Shown here one piece after another: positions 21,385 to 33,378 of a stretch of DNA of 38,770 nt (position 1 is the first letter of the stretch; each line of letters begins with the position of its first letter). This stretch comes from Bacteroidota bacterium (GTDB lineage: Bacteria; Bacteroidota; Bacteroidia; NS11-12g; UBA955). The stretch is from positions 1 through 38,770 of the forward strand of contig JAGXTF010000030.1 of the NCBI GenBank assembly GCA_018333525.1, read 5' to 3'. Position numbers and translations under genes: made by a program. The notes beneath the pieces are model-generated. The model saw only the letters and a program-made list of their open reading frames with translations, was not told the origin of the DNA and did no database searches.

Positions 21385-23454
21385 ATGGAACATCAGCATC
21401 ATACAGGCCATCATATGCCGGAAATGAAAGGCCCCGATTCCCCCAATTCCCATTCAGATAAGGCACATACCGGACATAACCACCATGGCATGATCCAGGA
21501 TTTTAAAAAACGATTTTGGATCTCTCTTGCCATCACCATTCCGGTATTATTGTTATCGGAAATGATACAAATGTTCTTTCATTTCCACCTCCATTTCTTT
21601 GGCGATACCTATTTGCTTTTCGCATTATCAACTATTGTTTTCTTTTACGGTGGATGGCCTTTTCTCAAAGGATTGAAGGACGAAATCGGCAATAGAAATC
21701 CGGGAATGATGACCCTGATTGGAATGGCAATTACGGTTGCCTATGTTTATAGTACCGCAGTAGTCTTTGGTTTAACCGGTATGGACTTTTATTGGGAACT
21801 GGCTACACTAATTGTAATCATGCTGTTGGGCCATTGGATTGAAATGAAATCGGTGATGGGTGCTTCACGCTCATTGGAATTACTGGTGGGAATGATGCCC
21901 GCAATTGCGCATAAAATTCATGGGACCCATGTAATGGATATACAGTTAGAAGAATTGGTACACGGTGATATGATTTTAGTAAAACCAGGAGAAAAAATTC
22001 CGGCAGACGGCGTAGTGATGGAAGGAGAAAGCTATGTGAATGAATCCATGCTCACCGGAGAATCCAAACCAAACAAAAAAAATGAAAGTCAGAAGGTAAT
22101 TGGTGGCTCCATTAATGGATCCGGAGCTTTAAAAATACAGGTTTTACATACGGGAAAAGACAGTTATTTAAATAAGGTTATTTCCATGGTACAGGAAGCG
22201 CAACGGAGTAAATCCAGAATGCAAAACCTCAGCAACAGAGCTGCTCGCTGGCTCACTGTTATTGCCCTTTCCGCCGGAATATTAACCCTTGTGGTTTGGC
22301 TTATTTCGGGTAGGGAATTTTCATTTGCACTGGAGCGAATGGTAACTGTAATGGTGATTTCCTGTCCGCACGCACTTGGCCTTGCAGTGCCTTTGGTTGT
22401 GGCAATTTCCACCGCTGTTTCTGCCCAAAACGGATTACTCATTCGCAATAGAACCGCATTCGAAGCCTCCCGTAAAATCACCGCCATTTTATTTGATAAA
22501 ACAGGTACACTCACCAAGGGTGAATTTGAAGTAACCCGTATAGAATCCTATCACCCAACATTCGGGGAGAACGAAATTCTGGAAATGGCAGCAGCACTGG
22601 AACAGAGTTCAGGCCATCCAATTGCATCCGGAATATTGAAGAAAGCGAAAGAATTGGACATTCAAATTCCTGAAATTACCGAATTCAATTCCATTCCGGG
22701 AAAAGGTATTTCTGCTCAAATTCTAAATAAAAAAGTTCAAATTGTTAGTCCGGGATATTTAACGGAATTTCAAATTGCCATTCCAAAAGACATACCATCC
22801 AATGCTGCAGAAACATTGGTATATCTGCTGGAAGACAATAATCTGATAGGAAGAATCGCTTTGGCAGATATTATTCGTCCGGAATCCTTAGCGGCAATTC
22901 AGCAATTTAAAGCAGACGGGATACAAGTGTGGATGGCCACAGGCGACAATCATAAAGTTGCAGAATCTGTAAGCAAAGAATTGGGTTTGGATGGGTTTTA
23001 TGCCGAGGTTTTGCCACACCAGAAAGTGGAAATTGTAAAAAAGATGCAGCAGGCAGGTGAATTTGTGGCTATGACCGGTGACGGCGTAAATGATGCTCCG
23101 GCGCTGGCACAGGCAGATGTAGGCATTGCTGTGGGCAGCGGCACTGATGTTGCAGCAGAGACTGCGGATATCATTTTGGTGAACAGCAATCCGCAAGATA
23201 TCTTAAATCTTATTATCTTTGGAAAAGATACTTACCGCAAAATGGTACAAAATTTATTCTGGGCTACTGCATACAATTCCATTTCCATTCCACTTGGAGC
23301 AGGAGTATTGTACACTTATGGCATTATGATGAGTCCTGCAGTAGGTGCAGTTCTTATGAGCCTGAGCACTATTATTGTAGCTGCAAATGCGCAACTTTTA
23401 CATCGCAAATTCAAAAGGAGAATTGCGGTCCAAAAAAACTTACTTCATTCATGA
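21385..23454 (+). CDS. copB: CopB-like copper P1B-type ATPase (CPH motif)
   Basis: 689 residues. ATP-driven metal exporter of the inner membrane. The N-terminus (1-36) is a His/Met-rich tail with ten histidines in place of an HMA domain. Membrane helices follow, then the actuator TGES (224-227), the transport motif CPH (327-329) in ISCPHALGLA, phosphorylated Asp D371 in FDKTGTLTKG, GHPIA in the nucleotide domain, and MTGDGVNDAPALAQADVGIA in the hinge. CPH instead of CPC places it in the P1B-3/CopB group, for copper or possibly silver. The last four bases overlap the next gene as ATGA, so it is co-translated with a metal-binding lipoprotein. Confidence 0.95.
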   Translation: MEHQHHTGHHMPEMKGPDSPNSHSDKAHTGHNHHGMIQDFKKRFWISLAITIPVLLLSEMIQMFFHFHLHFFGDTYLLFALSTIVFFYGGWPFLKGLKDEIGNRNPGMMTLIGMAITVAYVYSTAVVFGLTGMDFYWELATLIVIMLLGHWIEMKSVMGASRSLELLVGMMPAIAHKIHGTHVMDIQLEELVHGDMILVKPGEKIPADGVVMEGESYVNESMLTGESKPNKKNESQKVIGGSINGSGALKIQVLHTGKDSYLNKVISMVQEAQRSKSRMQNLSNRAARWLTVIALSAGILTLVVWLISGREFSFALERMVTVMVISCPHALGLAVPLVVAISTAVSAQNGLLIRNRTAFEASRKITAILFDKTGTLTKGEFEVTRIESYHPTFGENEILEMAAALEQSSGHPIASGILKKAKELDIQIPEITEFNSIPGKGISAQILNKKVQIVSPGYLTEFQIAIPKDIPSNAAETLVYLLEDNNLIGRIALADIIRPESLAAIQQFKADGIQVWMATGDNHKVAESVSKELGLDGFYAEVLPHQKVEIVKKMQQAGEFVAMTGDGVNDAPALAQADVGIAVGSGTDVAAETADIILVNSNPQDILNLIIFGKDTYRKMVQNLFWATAYNSISIPLGAGVLYTYGIMMSPAVGAVLMSLSTIIVAANAQLLHRKFKRRIAVQKNLLHS

Positions 23455-23672
23455 AAAAAATTGGTTTTGTGTTTTTGTATATTTTTGTGTGTGCAATATT
23501 TTCAGGGTGCACCAGTGGCGGGAATTCTAATCAAATCACTTCCATAGATACAAATAAGCTACAGCCGGGAAATGAATATTATCAATGCGAAATGCACAAA
23601 GAAATTATATCTGATAAAGCAGGTAATTGCAGCAAATGTGATATGAAACTCATTCAAAGAAAGAAACAATGA
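23451..23672 (+). CDS. Small lipoprotein with heavy-metal-binding domain
   Basis: 73 residues. A signal ends in the lipobox FSGC (C20), followed by a short linker and a heavy-metal-binding domain (HMBD-like): YYQCEMHKE and GNCSKCDMKLI, with C46, M48, H49, C60, C63 and M65 as likely ligands. The same domain is seen in CusB/CopB partners and in the barrel protein at 31442-32575 of this window. It overlaps the upstream copB stop (ATGA) and the downstream gene start (ATGA), so three genes are translationally coupled. It may accept copper from the ATPase in the periplasm or hold it for export. Confidence 0.88.
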   Translation: MKKIGFVFLYIFVCAIFSGCTSGGNSNQITSIDTNKLQPGNEYYQCEMHKEIISDKAGNCSKCDMKLIQRKKQ

Positions 23673-24268
23673 AAATAAAATTGAAAATGACAAAATTGGT
23701 ATTTTTAACTGCGCTTTTTGGCTCTGCCGGATTATTTTTATCCATGGTTTTCGGTCCGTCGAGTTCCGGCGCCCCTGCTTCACATACCGGCGCACCAGGA
23801 GAACAAACCTGCGCTGTTTCCGGCTGTCATGACGACAATGCATTAAATTCCGGCACCGCCAAATTGAACATTGATGCAGGAAATATCAGCAATTATATTC
23901 CGGGGAAAACATACCCGATAAAAATTCAAATTCTCGATGCCGGTATCCAGCGTTTTGGTTTTCAGATTACGGCTTTATCGCTTTCCGAAAATAAAAATAT
24001 AGGTAAATTATTGGTTACAGATGTATTGAAAACACAGTATATGAATAACCTTGTCGAATATAAAGACAGGGAATATATCACCTACACATTTAACGGTACA
24101 GATGCATTAGAACCAGGAGTTGGCGAATGGGTGGTCAATTGGAAAGCACCTTCAGAAAATCTGGGACCGGTAATTTTTTATGTGGGTGCTGTTTCTGCAA
24201 ATGACAATGAAAATGACAAAGGTGATTTTACATATACATCTCAATTAACCATTAACGATAGCAAATAA
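23669..24268 (+). CDS. Choice-of-anchor V domain protein with CX4CH motif
   Basis: 199 residues. A signal-like hydrophobic segment (about 8-28) is followed by SGAPASHTGAPGEQTCAVSGCHDD. This is the choice-of-anchor V/Reeler-like start, with C48, C53 and H54 forming C-x4-CH instead of the haem-c standard CxxCH. Then comes a beta-rich domain with YIPGKTYPIKIQI, RFGFQITALS and GVGEWVVNWKAP, ending FTYTSQLTIND. No sorting domain follows, so the anchoring mode is unclear. The start overlaps the HMBD lipoprotein stop (ATGA). A second in-frame ATG at 23687 is possible. The motif may bind haem or a metal; function unproven. Confidence 0.8.
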   Translation: MKIKLKMTKLVFLTALFGSAGLFLSMVFGPSSSGAPASHTGAPGEQTCAVSGCHDDNALNSGTAKLNIDAGNISNYIPGKTYPIKIQILDAGIQRFGFQITALSLSENKNIGKLLVTDVLKTQYMNNLVEYKDREYITYTFNGTDALEPGVGEWVVNWKAPSENLGPVIFYVGAVSANDNENDKGDFTYTSQLTINDSK

Positions 24269-24276
24269 ATATTATC

Positions 24277-25146
24277 ATGAAAAAGATTTATTTTTTATTT
24301 CCGGTATTTATTCTATTCTGTGGTTTCGCAGTTTTAGGAACTTATAAAACTTCCGGCGGGCACCCTTCCAGCACCGGAGCACCCGGAGAAGCTACCTGTG
24401 CAAATGCCCAGGTGGGCTGCCATCAGGGGGCATCCTTTACGCGCGACAGCACAAATTTGGTAAATTCTTTACTTTTTTCAGGCGGGCAAACTTACTCTCC
24501 TGGTAAAACTTATACGATAACCGTAAAGGCCAATAAAAGTGGAATCGAAAAGTTCGGTTTCGAAATTGTCGCCTTAGCTAAAAACGATTTATCCAATGCC
24601 GGAGCATGGACCATTACAGATGCTAATAGAACCCATATCATCAATGGAACCGGTAGTCTTGTCAGCCGCAAGTACGTTACACACAGCACCAATGGCACTC
24701 CGGCTGTTTCCACCGGATTGGGGCAATGGTCTTTCGATTGGACAGCGCCAACAACCAATATGGGTGACATCACATTTTATTACTGCACCAATTGCACCAA
24801 TAACAACAATGCCAGCAATGGAGAACAGTTATTTGTTTCCAATTATACCATTAAAATGGAATGGCCAGCAGGGATTGCGGTAGTGAAAGATAAAAAAATG
24901 CAGGTTCATTATGATAATGAAAATAGAATACTACAAGTTCGTTATCATTTAACCAGCGCATCATCTGCCAGTATTCATGTATTCAATTCAGAAGGAAAAA
25001 CGGTTCAGAAATTTGATGCAACTGCCAAGGAGGCGGGTTATGTAGAAGATGAATTTGAATTAAAAAACACACTTTCCAAGGGTATTTATTTGGTAAATCT
25101 GGAAATTGGTGGAGAGAAGATTACGGAAAAGATTTTGGTAAATTAG
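24277..25146 (+). CDS. Choice-of-anchor V domain protein with T9SS sorting domain
   Basis: 289 residues, a paralogue of the preceding gene, 8 bp downstream. Signal segment at about 1-21, then SSTGAPGEATCANAQVGCHQG with C41, C48 and H49 (C-x6-CH). A beta domain follows with YSPGKTYTITVK, KFGFEIVALAK and GLGQWSFDWTAP, and an extra CTNC segment near 168-171. The C-terminal 85 or so residues form a type A T9SS sorting domain (SASIHVFNSEGKTVQKF, LSKGIYLVNLEIGGEKI), so this copy should be exported across the outer membrane and attached to the surface, unlike its neighbour. It is the last gene of the copB cluster. Confidence 0.82.
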   Translation: MKKIYFLFPVFILFCGFAVLGTYKTSGGHPSSTGAPGEATCANAQVGCHQGASFTRDSTNLVNSLLFSGGQTYSPGKTYTITVKANKSGIEKFGFEIVALAKNDLSNAGAWTITDANRTHIINGTGSLVSRKYVTHSTNGTPAVSTGLGQWSFDWTAPTTNMGDITFYYCTNCTNNNNASNGEQLFVSNYTIKMEWPAGIAVVKDKKMQVHYDNENRILQVRYHLTSASSASIHVFNSEGKTVQKFDATAKEAGYVEDEFELKNTLSKGIYLVNLEIGGEKITEKILVN

Positions 25147-25501: not shown

Positions 25502-25840
25502 ATGTTCTTTTGTAACTTCGCCAAGTTGAAGTTTTTCACGGTCATATTCAGTATCTATTTTGTGGCGCTTTCCAGCATCCCATGTACCGATTATGCCGGC
25601 TGTAGCAGCGAAGAAACCACACATTCCGTTTCAGGATCCTGCAATTCCGATGATTCCCACCATGGAGAATGTTCCCCTTTTTGTTTGTGTTCCTGCTGCG
25701 GAATTACCATAGCCTTATTTTACAATTCTTATTTTCCGCCTTTGGAATATAAATTTTCGGATACACCTTACCTTTTAAGGGATGTAACATTTAGCTCAGT
25801 AGAGCCTGCCAATATCTGGCATCCGCCCAAAATTTCCTGA
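25502..25840 (+). CDS. Cys/His-rich small envelope protein (DUF6660-like)
   Basis: Up to 112 residues. An N-terminal hydrophobic signal-like segment (KFFTVIFSIYFVALSSIPC) is followed by a part with eight cysteines in total and a His cluster (DDSHHGEC, then FCLCSCCG), then a short C-terminal tail. This is the layout of DUF6660 proteins found before CusA-type pumps in Bacteroidota. The start is doubtful: TTG at 25526 gives MKFFTVIFSIYF, the more usual beginning, and would make 104 residues. It is likely a copper-binding accessory protein of the periplasm or membrane. A hairpin lies between it and cusA. Confidence 0.7.
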   Translation: MFFCNFAKLKFFTVIFSIYFVALSSIPCTDYAGCSSEETTHSVSGSCNSDDSHHGECSPFCLCSCCGITIALFYNSYFPPLEYKFSDTPYLLRDVTFSSVEPANIWHPPKIS

Positions 25841-25933: not shown

Positions 25934-28900
25934 ATGTTAGAAAAGATCATTGCGTTTAGCATTAAAAACAAACTCTTAATCGGGCTATTTATTATAGCCC
26001 TGGTAATCTATGGCTCGTTTCAATTTACCAAACTGCCCATAGATGCCGTACCGGATATTACAGACAATCAGGTGCAGGTTATTACTACGGCTCCTTCATT
26101 TGGAGCTCCCGATATCGAGCGTCTGATTACGTTTCCCATAGAACAGGCCAATAGCAATATTCCCGGTTTAAAAGAAATACGCAGTTTTTCGCGTTTTGGA
26201 TTGTCTCTTATAACCATTGTTTTTGAAGAGGATGTAAATGTTTACTGGGCACGCCAACAGGTAACCGAACGGTTAAAAATCGCCCAGGAGCAGATTCCCA
26301 AAGGTATTGGTACTCCGGAACTGGCACCAGTAACTACGGGTCTTGGTGAAATATACCAATACGTAATTCGCGCCAAACATGGTTATGAAGCAAAATACGA
26401 TGCAACGGAATTGCGCACCATACAAGATTGGATTGTGCGCCGGCAGTTGCTGGGTGTGCAAGGTGTAGCAGATGTGAGCAGTTTCGGAGGCAAATTAAAG
26501 CAATATGAAATTGCAGTAGATGCCAATGAATTAAAATCGTACAACATCACCATTAACGACGTATTTACGGCATTAGAAAAAAACAATGAAAATACAGGTG
26601 GCGCATACATAGAAAGACGCTCTACCGTTCTGTATATCCGTAGCGAAGGGCTTATAGGGAATGAAGACGACATCCGGAATATTGTTGTAAAAAACACAGA
26701 AAATGGAACACCGTTATTGATTAATGATGTTGCTGAAGTTCGGATTGGAAGCGCTATTCGTTACGGCAGCATGACTTATAACGATGAAGGAGAAGCCGCC
26801 GGCGCTGTGGTAATGATGCTCAAAGGCGGCAATAGCAGTGAAGTAATAAAAAATGTAAAAGACCGAATTATACAGATTGAAAAAACACTGCCTCAGGGGG
26901 TGGAAATTGAACCATTTCTGGATAGAAGTAAAATGGTGAATCAAGCCATTGGAACTGTTTCTAAAAATCTAATGGAAGGTGCATTAATTGTCATATTTGT
27001 TTTGGTATTATTTCTCGGAAATTTCAGGGCAGGAATTCTGGTTGCATCCGTTATTCCTCTTTCCATGCTTTTTGCTATCATTTTGATGAATTTATTTGGC
27101 GTAAGCGGGAATTTAATGAGTTTGGGGGCACTGGATTTCGGACTTATAGTAGACGGTGCGGTAATTATAGTGGAAGCTGTAATGCATGGAATTACACAAA
27201 TTAAAAAATCTTCTTTCGGACAATTAAACCGAAATGAAATGGACCAAGAAGTAAAAACTTCTGCAAGTAAAATGATGAACAGCGCAGTATTCGGTCAAAT
27301 TATTATTTTGATAGTTTATCTGCCTATTTTCTCATTGGAAGGAATTGAGGGTAAAATGTTTAAACCAATGGCTCAAACAGTAGCATTTGCCCTTTTGGGT
27401 GCATTTATACTTTCCCTAACCTATGTGCCGATGATGTCTGCACTTTTTCTAAAAAGAAACAAAACTCATAAACGCAATATCTCCGATAAACTCATGGACT
27501 TTTTCACGAAAATCCATCAAACAAATCTGAAAAAAGTATTGAGATTCCCCAAAATTACCATTGCTGCATCTCTGGGATTGATGGCAATATCCCTGTTCGT
27601 TTTCAGCAAAATGGGAGGTGAGTTTATTCCAACTTTAGAAGAAGGAGATTTTGCAGTAGAAACCAGAGTATTGGCAGGAAGCAATATTGCTACCACTTCT
27701 GAAGCTTGCTTGAAAGCAGCACATATTTTAAAAAATAAATTTCCTGAAATAAATAAAATTATCGGGAAAATTGGAAGTGGTGAAATCCCTACAGATCCAA
27801 TGCCCATGGAAGCCGCAGATATCATGATAATTCTGAAGGACAAAAGCGAATGGACATCCGCAGAAACCTTTCCGGAACTCGCTGAAAAAATGGGTAAAGC
27901 CCTGGAAGATCTTCCCGGTGTAACTTTTGGATTTCAATATCCTGTAGCCATGCGATTCAATGAACTTATGACAGGAGCAAAGCAGGACGTGGTTTGCAAA
28001 ATTTATGGGGAAAATCTGGATTCCCTTTCCAAATATGGAAATATTCTTGGTGATTTGGCCGGAACTATCAACGGGGCCAAAGACATTTATGTGGAAAGTA
28101 TCACAGGACTACCACAGGTAATTATTCAATACAAAAGAAATATCATGGCACAATACGGTTTAAATATATCAGATGTAAACAAGGTAATTAATACTGCATT
28201 TGCAGGACAGAGCAGTGGGCTGGTGTTTGAGGATGAAAAAAGATTTGACCTGGTGGTGAGACTTGCAGGTGAAAACAGACAACAACTGGAAGATGTACAA
28301 AATTTATTAATTCCAACAGCTCAGGGAACTCAAATTCCATTGTATCAGGTTGCAAGCGTCAATATTCAGGAAAGTATCAATCAAATTCAAAGGGATGATG
28401 CAAAACGCAGAATTATTGTCGGCTTCAATGTCCGGGGCAGGGATGTTCAAAGTATCGTCACTGAATTACAACAAAAAGTAGGAACAAACGTGCATCTTCC
28501 ATCGGGGTACTACATCAAATACGGAGGCACTTTCGAGAACCTGAATGCAGCAAAAAAACGTCTCGGAATTGCGGTGCCAATCTCACTAATCCTTATTTTT
28601 ATTTTGCTATATTTTGCATTTAATTCCGTAAAACAGGGATTGTTAATTTATTCCGCAATTCCACTTTCTGCAATAGGAGGTATTCTATTTCTCGCCATGC
28701 GCGGCATGTCATTCAGCATAAGTGCCGGTGTAGGTTTTATTGCACTTTTTGGAGTCGCTGTTTTAAACGGAATAGTATTAATTGCCGAATTTAACCGAAT
28801 TAAAAATGAAGGAGAATCGGATACCATGCAAATAGTATTACAGGGCACCAAAATGCGATTGAGGCCGGTTTTGATGACGGCATTTGTCGCCTCCATGGGA

Positions 28901-30289
28901 TTTTTGCCTATGGCACTCAGCCATGGTGAGGGTGCGGAAGTACAGCGACCCTTAGCCACCGTGGTAATAGGTGGTTTATTAATCGCGACATTTTTAACTT
29001 TATTTGTTTTGCCTGTGTTATACATTCTTTTTGAAAAAGGTTTCAAAGGTAAATTCAATGAAAATGCGAAAGTTATTACTGCGGCCTCTTTGTTAATTAC
29101 CGGTATATTTTATTCCGGCTCTATTCATGCACAACAGGCGATATCCCTGAATGCTGCAATAGATACTGCAATTCAAAACAATCTGTTGGTTCGCAATGAA
29201 AAGTTGAAGTCAGAATACCAGAACAAATTAAAAGAGGCTTCTTTAGATATTCCTCAAACCAATATTACCGGGGAATACGGTCAGATTAACAGCATCTATA
29301 AGGATACGCGTATCGGTATTTCTCAAAACTTCAGTTTTCCTGCTGTTTATACCAGGCAAAGATTATTACAGAATGCAATTTATACAAGCAGTATTCTGGA
29401 TGTAGTATTGCGGGAAAACGAACTAAAAAAACAAGTTAGTAATACCTATTATTTGTTACTGTATGTGATGCAAAAACAAAAATTACTGATGCAAAGCGAC
29501 AGTATTTTCTCTCACTTCCTGGAAAAATCCAATCAACGCTTTGCGAAGGGGGAAAGTAATATTCTCGAAAAAATAACGGCAGAAACTCAACGCGGAGAGA
29601 TACACATCCAACTCAAACAGGTTAAAAACGATTTAGAGACCCTTCAGTTGCAATTTCAACTATTGTTGAATACCAATATTCAATTTACACCAGAAAATGC
29701 GCCCATGCGGCTTCCATTTTTGATTTCCCCCGAATTTCAATCTGAAAATCATCCCTTCATTCATATTCTGGCACAACAAAAACAAATTTCAATGGAGAAT
29801 ACGAGGGTGGAAAAATCCAGAATGTTGCCGAATTTATTTATTGGATTCAGCAATATGAGCATTCAGGGCACAGGTGCCGACAATATATTTTATTCCAGAT
29901 CCTATCGTTTCAGTTCTGTACAGATGGGATTGGGAGTTCCTCTGTTTTATGGATCTCAGAAGGCAAAGATTCATGCTTCCAAAGTTCAGGAATCCATTGC
30001 GCAAAACAATTACAACCAGGGATTAAAAGAGTTAAGAACCGGATATGACATCTACTTTAAAAAATACCAAAACCAATTGCAGGTTGTAAATTATTATGAG
30101 GATACAGCAATAAAAAATGCAGATATCATCATGCAAACTGCACACAAACAATTTGAAAATGGAGATATCAATTATATGGAATGGACCATGTTGGTACTTA
30201 ATGCTACTGCCATACGAAGCAATTATTCAGATGCATTAAGTGAATTAAACCAAATCGCGATACAACTTCAATTTTTCACCAATAATTAA
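25934..30289 (+). CDS. cusA: CusA/CzcA heavy-metal RND efflux pump fused to a TolC-like outer-membrane factor
   Basis: 1451 residues. The first 1040 or so form an HME-type RND transporter: N-terminal FSIKNKLLIG, LPIDAVPDITDNQVQVIT, the TM4 proton-relay region DFGLIVDGAVIIVE (D near 407), GGEFIPTLEEGDFA, and a region with TDPMPMEAADIMI. At about 1043-1067 a hydrophobic stretch ends in SIHAQQ, like a signal peptide. The rest (about 1068-1451) is an outer-membrane efflux protein domain of long helices such as KQVSNTYYLLLYVMQKQKLL and QRFAKGESNILEKITAET. Metal choice between Cu/Ag and Zn/Co is not settled by sequence; neighbours suggest copper. The adaptor gene follows 8 bp downstream. Confidence 0.93.
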   Translation: MLEKIIAFSIKNKLLIGLFIIALVIYGSFQFTKLPIDAVPDITDNQVQVITTAPSFGAPDIERLITFPIEQANSNIPGLKEIRSFSRFGLSLITIVFEEDVNVYWARQQVTERLKIAQEQIPKGIGTPELAPVTTGLGEIYQYVIRAKHGYEAKYDATELRTIQDWIVRRQLLGVQGVADVSSFGGKLKQYEIAVDANELKSYNITINDVFTALEKNNENTGGAYIERRSTVLYIRSEGLIGNEDDIRNIVVKNTENGTPLLINDVAEVRIGSAIRYGSMTYNDEGEAAGAVVMMLKGGNSSEVIKNVKDRIIQIEKTLPQGVEIEPFLDRSKMVNQAIGTVSKNLMEGALIVIFVLVLFLGNFRAGILVASVIPLSMLFAIILMNLFGVSGNLMSLGALDFGLIVDGAVIIVEAVMHGITQIKKSSFGQLNRNEMDQEVKTSASKMMNSAVFGQIIILIVYLPIFSLEGIEGKMFKPMAQTVAFALLGAFILSLTYVPMMSALFLKRNKTHKRNISDKLMDFFTKIHQTNLKKVLRFPKITIAASLGLMAISLFVFSKMGGEFIPTLEEGDFAVETRVLAGSNIATTSEACLKAAHILKNKFPEINKIIGKIGSGEIPTDPMPMEAADIMIILKDKSEWTSAETFPELAEKMGKALEDLPGVTFGFQYPVAMRFNELMTGAKQDVVCKIYGENLDSLSKYGNILGDLAGTINGAKDIYVESITGLPQVIIQYKRNIMAQYGLNISDVNKVINTAFAGQSSGLVFEDEKRFDLVVRLAGENRQQLEDVQNLLIPTAQGTQIPLYQVASVNIQESINQIQRDDAKRRIIVGFNVRGRDVQSIVTELQQKVGTNVHLPSGYYIKYGGTFENLNAAKKRLGIAVPISLILIFILLYFAFNSVKQGLLIYSAIPLSAIGGILFLAMRGMSFSISAGVGFIALFGVAVLNGIVLIAEFNRIKNEGESDTMQIVLQGTKMRLRPVLMTAFVASMGFLPMALSHGEGAEVQRPLATVVIGGLLIATFLTLFVLPVLYILFEKGFKGKFNENAKVITAASLLITGIFYSGSIHAQQAISLNAAIDTAIQNNLLVRNEKLKSEYQNKLKEASLDIPQTNITGEYGQINSIYKDTRIGISQNFSFPAVYTRQRLLQNAIYTSSILDVVLRENELKKQVSNTYYLLLYVMQKQKLLMQSDSIFSHFLEKSNQRFAKGESNILEKITAETQRGEIHIQLKQVKNDLETLQLQFQLLLNTNIQFTPENAPMRLPFLISPEFQSENHPFIHILAQQKQISMENTRVEKSRMLPNLFIGFSNMSIQGTGADNIFYSRSYRFSSVQMGLGVPLFYGSQKAKIHASKVQESIAQNNYNQGLKELRTGYDIYFKKYQNQLQVVNYYEDTAIKNADIIMQTAHKQFENGDINYMEWTMLVLNATAIRSNYSDALSELNQIAIQLQFFTNN

Positions 30290-30297
30290 CAAATACA

Positions 30298-31437
30298 ATG
30301 ATCAAAATAAATATTCTGATTCCATTTATAACCATACTTGCTGCATGCGGGAATCAAACAGCGAAGGAATCTGTAGCCGAAGCTCCGGCTGATGAAACCA
30401 CGGTAGTCCTCACTGCGGCACAACTCAAAAATTCGGATATTCAGGTGGGAAAAATTGAAATGCGAAACATTTCTTCCCTGTTAAAAGTGAATGGCAAAAT
30501 TGAAGTTCCACCACAAAATATGGTTTCAGTAAGTGTGCCTTTGGGCGGATATCTCAAATACACCAAACTCCTGCCGGGCATGCATATTGGCCGCGGAGAA
30601 GTGATAGCAACCATGGAAGACCAGCAGTACATACAACTGCAGCAGGACTACCTGACGGCCAAAGCCCATTTTAGTTCCATTGAAGCCGAATACATCAGGC
30701 AAAAGGAATTAAATGCGAGCAAAGCCAGCAGTGACAAAGTTTTCCAACAGGCCCAAACAGAATATATATCTCAAAAAGTATTAATAAAATCATTAGAAGA
30801 AAAACTCAAACTCATTGGAATTCAAACCAACAACCTGAATGAAAATACTATTTCACGAAGTATTCAGATTCACTCTCCTATTGATGGTTTTGTATCCTCT
30901 GTAAAGCAAAATATTGGAAAATATATTTCGCCAACCGATGTGTTATTTGAATTGGTAAACCCTGCTGACATTCATTTGCAGCTCACCGTATTTGAAAAAG
31001 ATCTGTACAAAATTCTGGTGGGTCAGAAATTGGTTGCGTACAACAATACCCAACCCGAGAAAAAATACAATTGCGAGATCATTCTCATAGGCAAAGATGT
31101 TTCACAGGAGCGAACAGTTCAGGTACAATGCCACTTCGATGCGTATGACAAGGCTCTGATTCCGGGAATGTATATGAATGCTGAAGTGGAAGTTTCTACC
31201 AATTCAGCCCTTGTGATTCCGAATGACGGTCTGGTGAGATTTGAAGGTAAAGAATATGTATTTATTGAAGAATCCAAAGGAAGATATAGCATGCTCGAAG
31301 TGAATACCCAAAATTCAGAAAAAGGATTTACCCAAATTACATTTGTAAATTCAAACGATAATTCTGACAAGAATTTTGTTTTAAAAGGTGCTTATACCCT
31401 ACTCATGAAAATGAAAAATTCCGGGGAAGAGGAATGA
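30298..31437 (+). CDS. cusB: RND efflux periplasmic adaptor lipoprotein (CusB/CzcB-like)
   Basis: 379 residues. Membrane-fusion protein linking the RND pump to the outer-membrane factor. The lipobox TILAAC sets C17 as the lipid anchor. Order of parts: beta-barrel start, lipoyl half (SVPLGGYLKYTKLLPGMHIG, GEVIATMED), an alpha-helical hairpin (about 113-178) with a coiled-coil pattern, second lipoyl half (IHSPIDGFVSSVKQNIGKYI), beta-barrel (ALIPGMYMNAEVEV) and a membrane-proximal end. No CusB N-terminal metal-binding Met cluster is obvious. It follows the pump gene by 8 bp and ends 4 bp from the convergent barrel gene, so the transcripts probably overlap. Confidence 0.92.
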   Translation: MIKINILIPFITILAACGNQTAKESVAEAPADETTVVLTAAQLKNSDIQVGKIEMRNISSLLKVNGKIEVPPQNMVSVSVPLGGYLKYTKLLPGMHIGRGEVIATMEDQQYIQLQQDYLTAKAHFSSIEAEYIRQKELNASKASSDKVFQQAQTEYISQKVLIKSLEEKLKLIGIQTNNLNENTISRSIQIHSPIDGFVSSVKQNIGKYISPTDVLFELVNPADIHLQLTVFEKDLYKILVGQKLVAYNNTQPEKKYNCEIILIGKDVSQERTVQVQCHFDAYDKALIPGMYMNAEVEVSTNSALVIPNDGLVRFEGKEYVFIEESKGRYSMLEVNTQNSEKGFTQITFVNSNDNSDKNFVLKGAYTLLMKMKNSGEEE

Positions 31438-31441
31438 GCAT

Positions 31442-32575
31442 TTATTTCACTTTATCCAGTTGCATTCCACAAACGGAACAAATCCCCGGAGAATTGCTTC
31501 CCCCGCCTTTGCACTTCATCGGGCACATATAAGTAAAGTCATTTCCAGCGTCATCACATTTCAAATCTTTTTTTGTAAAAAAACGATAGGATAAACCCAT
31601 GGTAAATTGCTGTTGAATTCCAATTTGCGTTCCTTGTACTTTTTGATACAGGGGAACTTCAGCAAGGCCATAAATGGTGCAGGTTTTGTAGGAATAACTA
31701 AATTGCGGAATCAGCGATATTTTTTTACTTCCGGTTGAATTCACATCCACATTATACAATGCGAGCACATCCACATTTTCATTATACCTCATTTTTTGAA
31801 CCCATTCCGCATTGCACTGCAGCGTAATTCCCAGTGAATGCATAAATGTTCTGCTCACAAATACATTCACTGCAGTAAAATCACCAAACTTCTCCCCCAG
31901 TGCGTTCCAGCCTTTTTTTATGTACATGGAATTTGCAAAAAAACGAATATTTTTTGGCCAGCCACTATGCATATAAAACAAATAAAACAGTACATCCTGA
32001 GATCCATTGGTGGGCTGAACCAAGGGAGGTGAGATGGTAAAATATTGCCTGCCTGTTGTGGGATTAGTGAATACTACATGTGAATCATTGTACTTTCCCA
32101 ACGGAATCTTATAGCCCAATCCAATAGTAAGTTCATCGTGCTTGTCAAGACGTTTCCGGTTCAAAATATCATAACGCGGAAAAATAATCATATCCCCGAA
32201 TCCCGAAGATTGTATTTTACCAGCGGCATTTAATTCTGTTTGGGTTTTATTCAAATAATAACCACCTTCGAGGGAAATGGTAAGGTCTTTGGTTATACCA
32301 TACGCAACCCGATTATATAGATATTTGCTTGAAAAACTTTGAAATAATGGTGAAGATTCGCCGTTTCCTGTAAGAAATTTATCGCTGTAAATATATTGTA
32401 AACTGCTGGCCAATTCCATTTGATGTTGAGCCAATACGCCCTGAGAAGCGTTGCCGGCAATGGGACTTCCACTCCCCCCTGAGCAACAGCCCTGAGAATG
32501 CAATAATGGATAATTTGCTAAAAAACAGAAATGAATAGCGAAGAATTTCAAACACCTCAATCTCATTTTCACCAT
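31442..32575 (-). CDS. Outer-membrane barrel protein with C-terminal heavy-metal-binding domain
   Basis: 377 residues. A signal peptide (ending near LLHSQG) is followed at once by a CC pair and a Gly/Ser-rich stretch (GCCSGGSGS), then a long run of amphipathic strands with aromatic ends that looks like a transporter-type beta-barrel (about 50-340), and finally an HMBD domain (about 346-377) with YMCPMKCKGGG and GICSVCGMQL. The ligand pattern (C, M, C, then CxxC and M) matches the small lipoprotein of the copB cluster. It lies 29 bp after a T9SS thioredoxin-fold gene and is convergent with the adaptor gene. An outer-membrane metal uptake or sensing role is inferred. A second start at ATG 32566 is possible. 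Confidence 0.8.
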   Translation of the reverse strand: MVKMRLRCLKFFAIHFCFLANYPLLHSQGCCSGGSGSPIAGNASQGVLAQHQMELASSLQYIYSDKFLTGNGESSPLFQSFSSKYLYNRVAYGITKDLTISLEGGYYLNKTQTELNAAGKIQSSGFGDMIIFPRYDILNRKRLDKHDELTIGLGYKIPLGKYNDSHVVFTNPTTGRQYFTISPPLVQPTNGSQDVLFYLFYMHSGWPKNIRFFANSMYIKKGWNALGEKFGDFTAVNVFVSRTFMHSLGITLQCNAEWVQKMRYNENVDVLALYNVDVNSTGSKKISLIPQFSYSYKTCTIYGLAEVPLYQKVQGTQIGIQQQFTMGLSYRFFTKKDLKCDDAGNDFTYMCPMKCKGGGSNSPGICSVCGMQLDKVK

Positions 32576-32604: not shown

Positions 32605-33378
32605 TCATGGAACTACAAGTCTGACTTGATTTTTACGGGTACCTGATTCAACATATACGGTATATAATCCCGGAGAAAGGTCCGACAAGTTTAATTCATA
32701 TTTTAACGTACCAGAATACTGCTGTAACAATTGAATATTCTTTTGCATATTTCCGGTTAAATTGTAAATAGAGATAGATACATCTGAACTTTCATCCAAA
32801 TTGCATTCCATACAGGTTTTTCCTGAAATAGCAGGATTTGGATACAAAATGAATTCCGATTTTGTCCGTAAATCTTTAGTACCAGCAACTGCAAGTGCAT
32901 TGTCGATGGCAGTATTTAAAGTGGTGGTAGAAAGGCTGCCATTGTTGTTTAAAAAAACTTTATGGCCGTGTCCGCCAACTACGATGGTTTTGGGCATCCC
33001 TGCACTTCCGTAATCCGACATTTTTACATCTGTTCCAGAAAATGAAGCAGTGTAGTTGATGCCATTGGAAGAAGCCCAGGTATTCAATGTATTGCAGGTT
33101 GTATTTCCATAATCATCAACCAGATAAAATTTTACTTTATCCGGATGCGATGACGCATAGTCTGCAAGCGCAGTTGAGGCGGCCAATGCCGGTGCAATAC
33201 AGGTTCCACAAGGCATTACCCAGCAGATGATAACTACTTTACCATCATTGAGATCTTCAAAAAGGACATGGCTTTTGCCAGCGCAGTCGTTAGCGGTAAA
33301 ATCGGTTGCGGTAGTTTGCCCTGTAAGCGGCAATACAGCGGCTAACAGGCATAAAATTGAAAGTAAAATCTTTCTCAT
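32605..33378 (-). CDS. Secreted thioredoxin-fold protein with T9SS sorting domain
   Basis: 257 residues. A signal peptide (1-20) precedes a thioredoxin-like domain (about 22-165) with the redox motif CGTC (C57-C60) after WVMP and cis-Pro region GMPKTIVVGG. The C-terminal 85 or so residues form a T9SS type A sorting domain with LYPNPAISGKT, VSISIYNLTGN and LSPGLYTVYVESG. It is thus expected on the cell surface or in the medium, carrying a dithiol site. Extra cysteines (32, 105, and the CMEC pair) could add disulfides or metal ligands. Together with the barrel-HMBD gene 29 bp downstream it forms a minus-strand pair in the metal island. Confidence 0.85.
   Translation of the reverse strand: MRKILLSILCLLAAVLPLTGQTTATDFTANDCAGKSHVLFEDLNDGKVVIICWVMPCGTCIAPALAASTALADYASSHPDKVKFYLVDDYGNTTCNTLNTWASSNGINYTASFSGTDVKMSDYGSAGMPKTIVVGGHGHKVFLNNNGSLSTTTLNTAIDNALAVAGTKDLRTKSEFILYPNPAISGKTCMECNLDESSDVSISIYNLTGNMQKNIQLLQQYSGTLKYELNLSDLSPGLYTVYVESGTRKNQVRLVVP

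Follow-up and report, generated by a model that had tools for sequence, protein, structure and literature searches.

To our knowledge, the passage of copper across the outer membrane is poorly understood. A described system with a genetic form like that of the one analyzed here is that of the PcoB/CopB barrels with the multicopper oxidase PcoA. PcoB, a barrel of 12 strands whose ends are both periplasmic, always occurs with PcoA, PcoA sometimes being found alone, and it has been argued to import copper (PMC9210255, available in part). It carries a disordered, His/Met-rich N-terminal extension that is needed for copper resistance, and it has also been argued to serve efflux (PMC12509749, available in part). 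In the COG4313 channel Pput2725 (4rl8), the pore is plugged by the N-terminus, whose first 14 residues are folded into the lumen on the periplasmic side; the authors think that the cargo of these channels is hydrophobic molecules and hardly ions, the channels being poor for hydrophilic solutes (PMC4493636, available in part). No published account of the pair of a barrel and a thioredoxin-fold partner described below turned up in our literature searches, as far as texts were accessible, and the accessible part of PMC11213822, which deals with copper in a flavobacterium, does not mention it.

The DNA analyzed here, hereafter the window, is a stretch of 38,770 nt from a Bacteroidota bacterium (assembly GCA_018333525.1, contig JAGXTF010000030.1, positions 1 to 38,770). 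Its minus strand carries at 31442-32575 an outer-membrane barrel gene, one ORF of 377 residues laid out as a signal peptide (1 to about 27), a segment containing Cys30-Cys31 (28-50), 12 predicted strands (52-333), a linker (about 334-350), and a C-terminal heavy-metal-binding domain (HMBD; 349-373). The original prediction that these parts form a single protein was borne out by the ORF, Pfam, and an AlphaFold model. Residues 349-374 of the tail (31454-31531, minus strand) include C351, M353, C355, C366, C369, and M371, as numbered from the sequence, and PF19335 (HMBD) matched residues 349-373 at 24.7 bits (cut-off 23.6; E 2.2e-5), a match that is weak when taken singly. Pfam found no other domain in the protein, with no PF13557 match at E values up to 1; NCBIfam held no family for it, and a sequence search of the PDB with the barrel part, alone or as a profile, returned no match at E values up to 1.

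Like PcoB with PcoA, this locus combines 12 strands, ends that are periplasmic by prediction, a metal-binding extension, and a partner that also occurs alone. Unlike PcoB, the window protein lacks a His/Met-rich disordered N-terminal domain; it is extended at the C-terminus by an HMBD, and it is partnered by a thioredoxin-fold protein of the type 9 secretion system (T9SS) instead of a multicopper oxidase. Given the same genetic form but another end, another metal domain, another partner, and no match to a CopB-type family among 50 members in Pfam, the barrel would work like PcoB without being a member of that family. We see an even chance that barrel and partner together form an outer-membrane module of two proteins that handles copper, PcoB/PcoA-like in action and distinct from that family.

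The AlphaFold model of the barrel protein, built from seven sequences, contains 12 strands between residues 52 and 333 with a mean pLDDT of 65.4, values falling below 50 for residues 26-41 and several loops. Its fold matches were outer-membrane barrels. VIA placed the COG4313 channel 4rl8 first (Z 23.0, rmsd 2.6, 248 residues) and FapF second, whereas Foldseek placed FapF first and 4rl8 at ranks 21-22, with a TM-score for 4rl8 (0.77-0.78 on target) above that of FapF; PcoB was absent among the 50 fold matches listed by Foldseek and VIA. The barrel predicted for the middle region was thereby recovered, with 4rl8 as its best match by VIA. Among 50 members run through Pfam at E values up to 0.01, the hits were HMBD, Phenol_MetA_deg, and HMA only, Phenol_MetA_deg (PF13557) being weakly matched by 10 of the 50 (best 1.2e-4). 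The window barrel thus resembles Pput2725 in having 12 strands and a similar size, and differs from the COG4313 family in having no PF13557 match and from 4rl8 in its metal domain, a feature that, like cysteines, goes unmentioned for that channel in the accessible part of PMC4493636. Since the number of strands is even, both ends of the protein, tail included, should lie in the periplasm.

About 24 residues of the mature N-terminus, glycine-rich and containing the Cys-Cys pair, precede strand 1. The codons for Cys30-Cys31 lie at 32483-32488 (minus strand). Both cysteines are present throughout an alignment of 50 members, the distant paralogues among them, and a second alignment had Cys-Cys in all 53 rows covering that place. 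The residue ahead of it was Q in 26 rows, G in 26, and S in 1. We considered whether the barrel might be a lipoprotein and ruled this out, as a lipobox-like triplet precedes Cys-Cys in none of the 53 rows; an ordinary signal-peptidase cut directly ahead of Gln is therefore likely. The N-terminal segment that is our candidate for a plug has low confidence in the model (pLDDT 36-48); the VIA alignment begins at residue 1 of 4rl8 and residue 37 of the model.

A first scan of genome contigs, in which one of six seed peptides lay within the tail, returned five full-length relatives (L002-L006), all tailed and 43-50% identical over the best segment. With a family profile of seven rows, six of them tailed, 46 of the 395 class genomes searched gave a barrel match at E values up to 1e-30 (43 at 1e-60 or better), and the family was also found in 7 of 108 genomes of the order. 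These 7 are the window's genome and six belonging to another family; by these counts, the distribution of the barrel is patchy among near kin. Fifty neighborhoods were fetched; L070 and L072 were dropped as carrying the same proteins as L004 and L003, as were two HMBD-only ORFs, and the final barrel set comprised 54 proteins, 49 orthologues plus the 5 distant paralogues L112-L116.

The original prediction had called for a search for the same architecture, and barrel plus HMBD recurred in 29 of the 49 orthologues, across many genomes; of the others, 1 has an HMA-like tail, 18 have none, and 1 is cut by a contig end. The HMBD label was assigned by the pattern C-x-M ... C-x-x-C-x-M, so those letters are built in; independently, Pfam found HMBD in 26 of 50 members (best 8.5e-16), a set that omits the four contig-end rows L079, L084, L097, and L110. 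The tail as a product of a frameshift or an assembly artifact is ruled out by its presence in 29 orthologues, and by the same comparison of sequences the union of barrel and HMBD is no chance fusion.

The tails nevertheless vary. In a tree built from the barrel part, 7 changes of tail state are required where 2 is the minimum possible, the starred branches forcing, for a given label, no more than 2 to 3; on this reading tails seem to have been gained or lost several times. In tail-less genes, no tail remnants were found 3′ of the stop, with three frames read for up to 240 bases in the 24 rows that continue past it. The 29 HMBD tails fall into two subtypes, of 20 residues in 16 and 21 residues in 13, which may reflect several acquisitions, there being only 20 residues to compare. 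In a single case (L111:8770-10137, minus strand) the same barrel bears an HMA-like domain where the HMBD normally sits; this tail scored 18.5 bits, under the Pfam cut-off of 24.8, and local comparison also linked it to HMA proteins of other loci. That one metal domain has been exchanged for another in this position suggests metal binding as the property of the tail that is kept.

The partner gene lies 29 bases upstream of the barrel gene on the same strand (32605-33378, minus) and encodes a T9SS-exported, ResA/TlpA-like thioredoxin-fold protein with C57-G-T-C60 as well as C32, C95, and M128. Its model (pLDDT 81) matched ResA in Foldseek, with a TM-score of 0.82 on 1st9 and up to 0.84 (target length), while Pfam hits of thioredoxin type were few (AhpC-TSA in 2 of 44 partners, Redoxin in 2 of 44). 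The C-terminal T9SS sorting domain (type A) was found with 42.7 against 27 bits, and all 44 members matched it. When 44 partners were aligned (all of the 46 except L075 and L076), D31, C32, C57, C60, C95, W101, and M128 proved invariant. The partner thus has the thioredoxin fold and CxxC in common with ResA/TlpA proteins and differs from them in its T9SS tail and in the extra invariant C32, C95, and M128.

The pairing noted in the window proved far tighter than one genome could show. The partner is found upstream on the barrel's strand at 46 of 49 orthologue loci, directly adjoining in 45 (including L076, where it is split into two ORFs) and with one gene between in L095. The remaining three loci (L079, L084, and L110) are cut by contig ends, and in their genomes the partner stands at a contig end (G410, G630) or beside the barrel's other piece (G684). 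No partner was found at the five distant paralogues L112-L116. Across the 395 genomes searched, it was present in all 43 with a barrel match at 1e-60 or better and, at E values up to 1e-25, in 29 further genomes (72 in total) without a strong barrel match, hits that are partly lower-scoring relatives and include G656, whose contig stops too soon after the partner to judge whether a barrel is there.

So close a pairing could also arise if the barrel were a docking or export partner specific to its T9SS thioredoxin-fold cargo, with the tail as an accessory metal buffer. SprF-type barrels serve their cargo in this way. The presence of the cargo in 43 of 43 barrel genomes, its occurrence also without the barrel, and FapF among the first two fold matches, an exporter of a protein (PMC5137466, available in part), agree with such a role. 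We nonetheless consider it unlikely: with 29 of the 72 cargo genomes (in part lower-scoring relatives) having no strong barrel match, export seems independent of the barrel, none of the 50 members matched the PorP/SprF family in Pfam, and the Cys-Cys, HMBD, and HMA features would be left unexplained.

The window's neighborhood provides a metal context. A CusB/CzcB-type periplasmic adaptor of an RND metal pump, identified by family searches, is encoded at 30298-31437 on the plus strand, after a single ORF of 1451 residues (25934-30289, plus) in which Pfam finds both the RND pump (ACR_tran) and the outer-membrane factor (OEP); a signal-peptide-like stretch can be seen by eye between these two parts, and a 1400-residue ORF at L002:447-4649 matches the CusA part. 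The barrel had been said to face the pump genes, which is right in the sense of tail to tail: the adaptor ends at 31437 (plus) and the barrel at 31442 (minus), and this convergence means that they share no common transcript. Farther away, the ORF at 21385-23454 (plus), with a His/Met-rich N-terminus, is what we take to be a P-type metal ATPase. As previously claimed, the same small domain also makes up a free-standing HMBD lipoprotein of 73 residues (23451-23672, plus; HMBD at 43-69, lipoprotein signal read from the sequence by eye), which found no match in a PDB sequence search.

Beyond the window, CusA/CusB-type genes occur in 13 of 49 barrel flanks and in none of 20 control stretches (Fisher p 0.014), controls that are few and hand-picked on the same contigs, with flanks unequal in length and some short; without the window the counts are 12 of 48 and 0 of 20 (p 0.013), and at the distant paralogues 0 of 5. 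The other 36 loci have no CusA/CusB-type gene within the fetched flank. Any copper marker, counted strictly, is present at 18 of 49 loci, the remaining 31 having none in the fetched flank; a looser count of 20 was tightened because some matches came via T9SS tails or shared domains. Markers beyond CusA/CusB are small HMA proteins (L084, L118), an HMA ATPase (L079), and oxidases (L004, L097). The HMA protein of L118 is free and comes ahead of partner and barrel, and L111 has the HMA-like domain fused. The C-P-M ... C-x-x-C-G-M motif of the barrel tail is shared with the HMBD of CusB-type adaptors and lipoproteins, and Pfam finds HMBD in the CusB-type adaptors at barrel loci L078 and L100; in the barrel protein the domain differs by sitting at the end of an outer-membrane barrel. 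We do not claim that the metal domain is supplied either in cis or in trans, Cus-type genes standing at 7 of 18 tail-less and 6 of 29 HMBD-tailed loci (p 0.20).

The metal context that had been proposed for the barrel is supported by Cus-type neighbors above controls, in about a quarter of loci, which would favor homeostasis or detoxification over nutrition. As judged from gene content, pump context cannot tell copper from other soft metals, and the HMBD could bind others.

Partner relatives were followed in 20 extra stretches, hand-picked from barrel-less genomes and second copies elsewhere. A multicopper oxidase lies within one gene of the partner relative in 7 of these 20 (L125, L127, L128, L130, L136, L138, and L139), and all six of the oxidases run through Pfam (all but that of L130) carry a T9SS tail. 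L128 belongs to the window's own genome and also has a CusA-type pump. One further stretch, L129, has one Cu-oxidase_2 match, and the other 12 have no oxidase, so that 13 of 20 are without a full multicopper oxidase. At the barrel locus L097, a partner relative and an oxidase are followed by partner and barrel.

These neighbors bear on a reading in which the barrel is a small-molecule channel of the COG4313 kind, for hydrophobic or sulfur compounds, with HMBD and Cys-Cys buffering metal or holding structure and the copper genes incidental. The fold, the Phenol_MetA_deg hits in 10 of 50 members, and the absence of a tail in 18 and of a copper marker in 31 of the 49 loci would all fit it. Copper neighbors above controls, partner relatives beside multicopper oxidases, and an HMA-like domain in place of the HMBD speak against it, and we hold it to be improbable.

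For the copper-handling module that we prefer, a mechanism can be proposed, its plug and gating being modeled on a single crystal structure, that of a distant relative (4rl8). The barrel, by prediction COG4313-like and 12-stranded with both ends periplasmic, would be a passive channel. By analogy with the COG4313 structure, the glycine-rich Cys-Cys N-terminus would enter the lumen from the periplasmic side and narrow it, thereby equipping the conduction path with a soft-metal or thiol site. The HMBD, on a linker of 13-19 residues after the last strand, would hang below the periplasmic mouth, where it, or the HMA-like domain in one relative, would take up or offer Cu(I), so that copper from the channel might be handed over and not released. 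On the outer face, the ResA-like partner would act as a thiol reductant or copper carrier, a role that its relatives may have beside multicopper oxidases. Copper as the substrate, as well as the direction and gating of the barrel, is what we infer.

In the original prediction it was suggested that the barrel could be a metal-gated pore or a receptor. A barrel with an HMBD is indeed conserved, and it may be a metal-gated pore or a receptor; the tail cannot be an obligatory gate, however, since 18 of 49 orthologues lack the metal-binding tail, and the constant feature across barrels is the N-terminal Cys-Cys. A channel gated by redox state and metal strikes us as a long shot. In it, either the partner would toggle the plug Cys-Cys so as to shut or free the lumen, or copper bound to Cys-Cys would shift the plug, the ion then being passed to the tail; if true, an outer-membrane pore would have a thiol gate operated by a secreted redox protein.

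The same parts could alternatively serve copper acquisition, the surface partner capturing or reducing copper, the channel admitting it, and the tail catching it for cuproenzymes. PcoB has a precedent as a proposed importer (PMC9210255, available in part), and at L123 and L124 partner relatives adjoin, by eye, cytochrome oxidase subunit-like and Sco-like genes, Pfam finding nothing in the one ORF tried (L123:9275-9925). With Cus-type neighbors, and with no cuproenzyme family recurring beside the barrel among the clusters listed, acquisition appears rather doubtful to us. The findings as a whole suggest that the pair is a so far undescribed Bacteroidota way of handling copper at the cell surface. 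Bacteroidota would thereby gain a distinct, genetically well-defined pair that links T9SS cargo with copper at the cell surface and lends itself to testing, since two cysteines are constant, the tail can be removed, and nature provides relatives without a tail as well as one whose tail has been swapped.

Several further proteins accompany these loci. Recurring near the barrel at L084, L091, L093, L095, L102, and L107 are two families of small cytochrome c-like proteins and, as a third, a protein of about 410 residues; all three occur in four of these loci and two each in L093 and L102, and Pfam names the cytochromes only. In the window, 25502-25840 (plus) encodes a small secreted Cys/His-bearing protein (DUF6660 in Pfam); another small Cys-rich family, of which a single member was tried without a Pfam hit, recurs in 8 barrel loci. 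The genes at 23669-24268 and 24277-25146 (both plus) encode secreted proteins that are related to each other; the product of the second gene has Reeler and T9SS domains, and a homologue of it (E 2e-72) opens L097, where it is followed by the partner relative, the multicopper oxidase, the partner, and the barrel.
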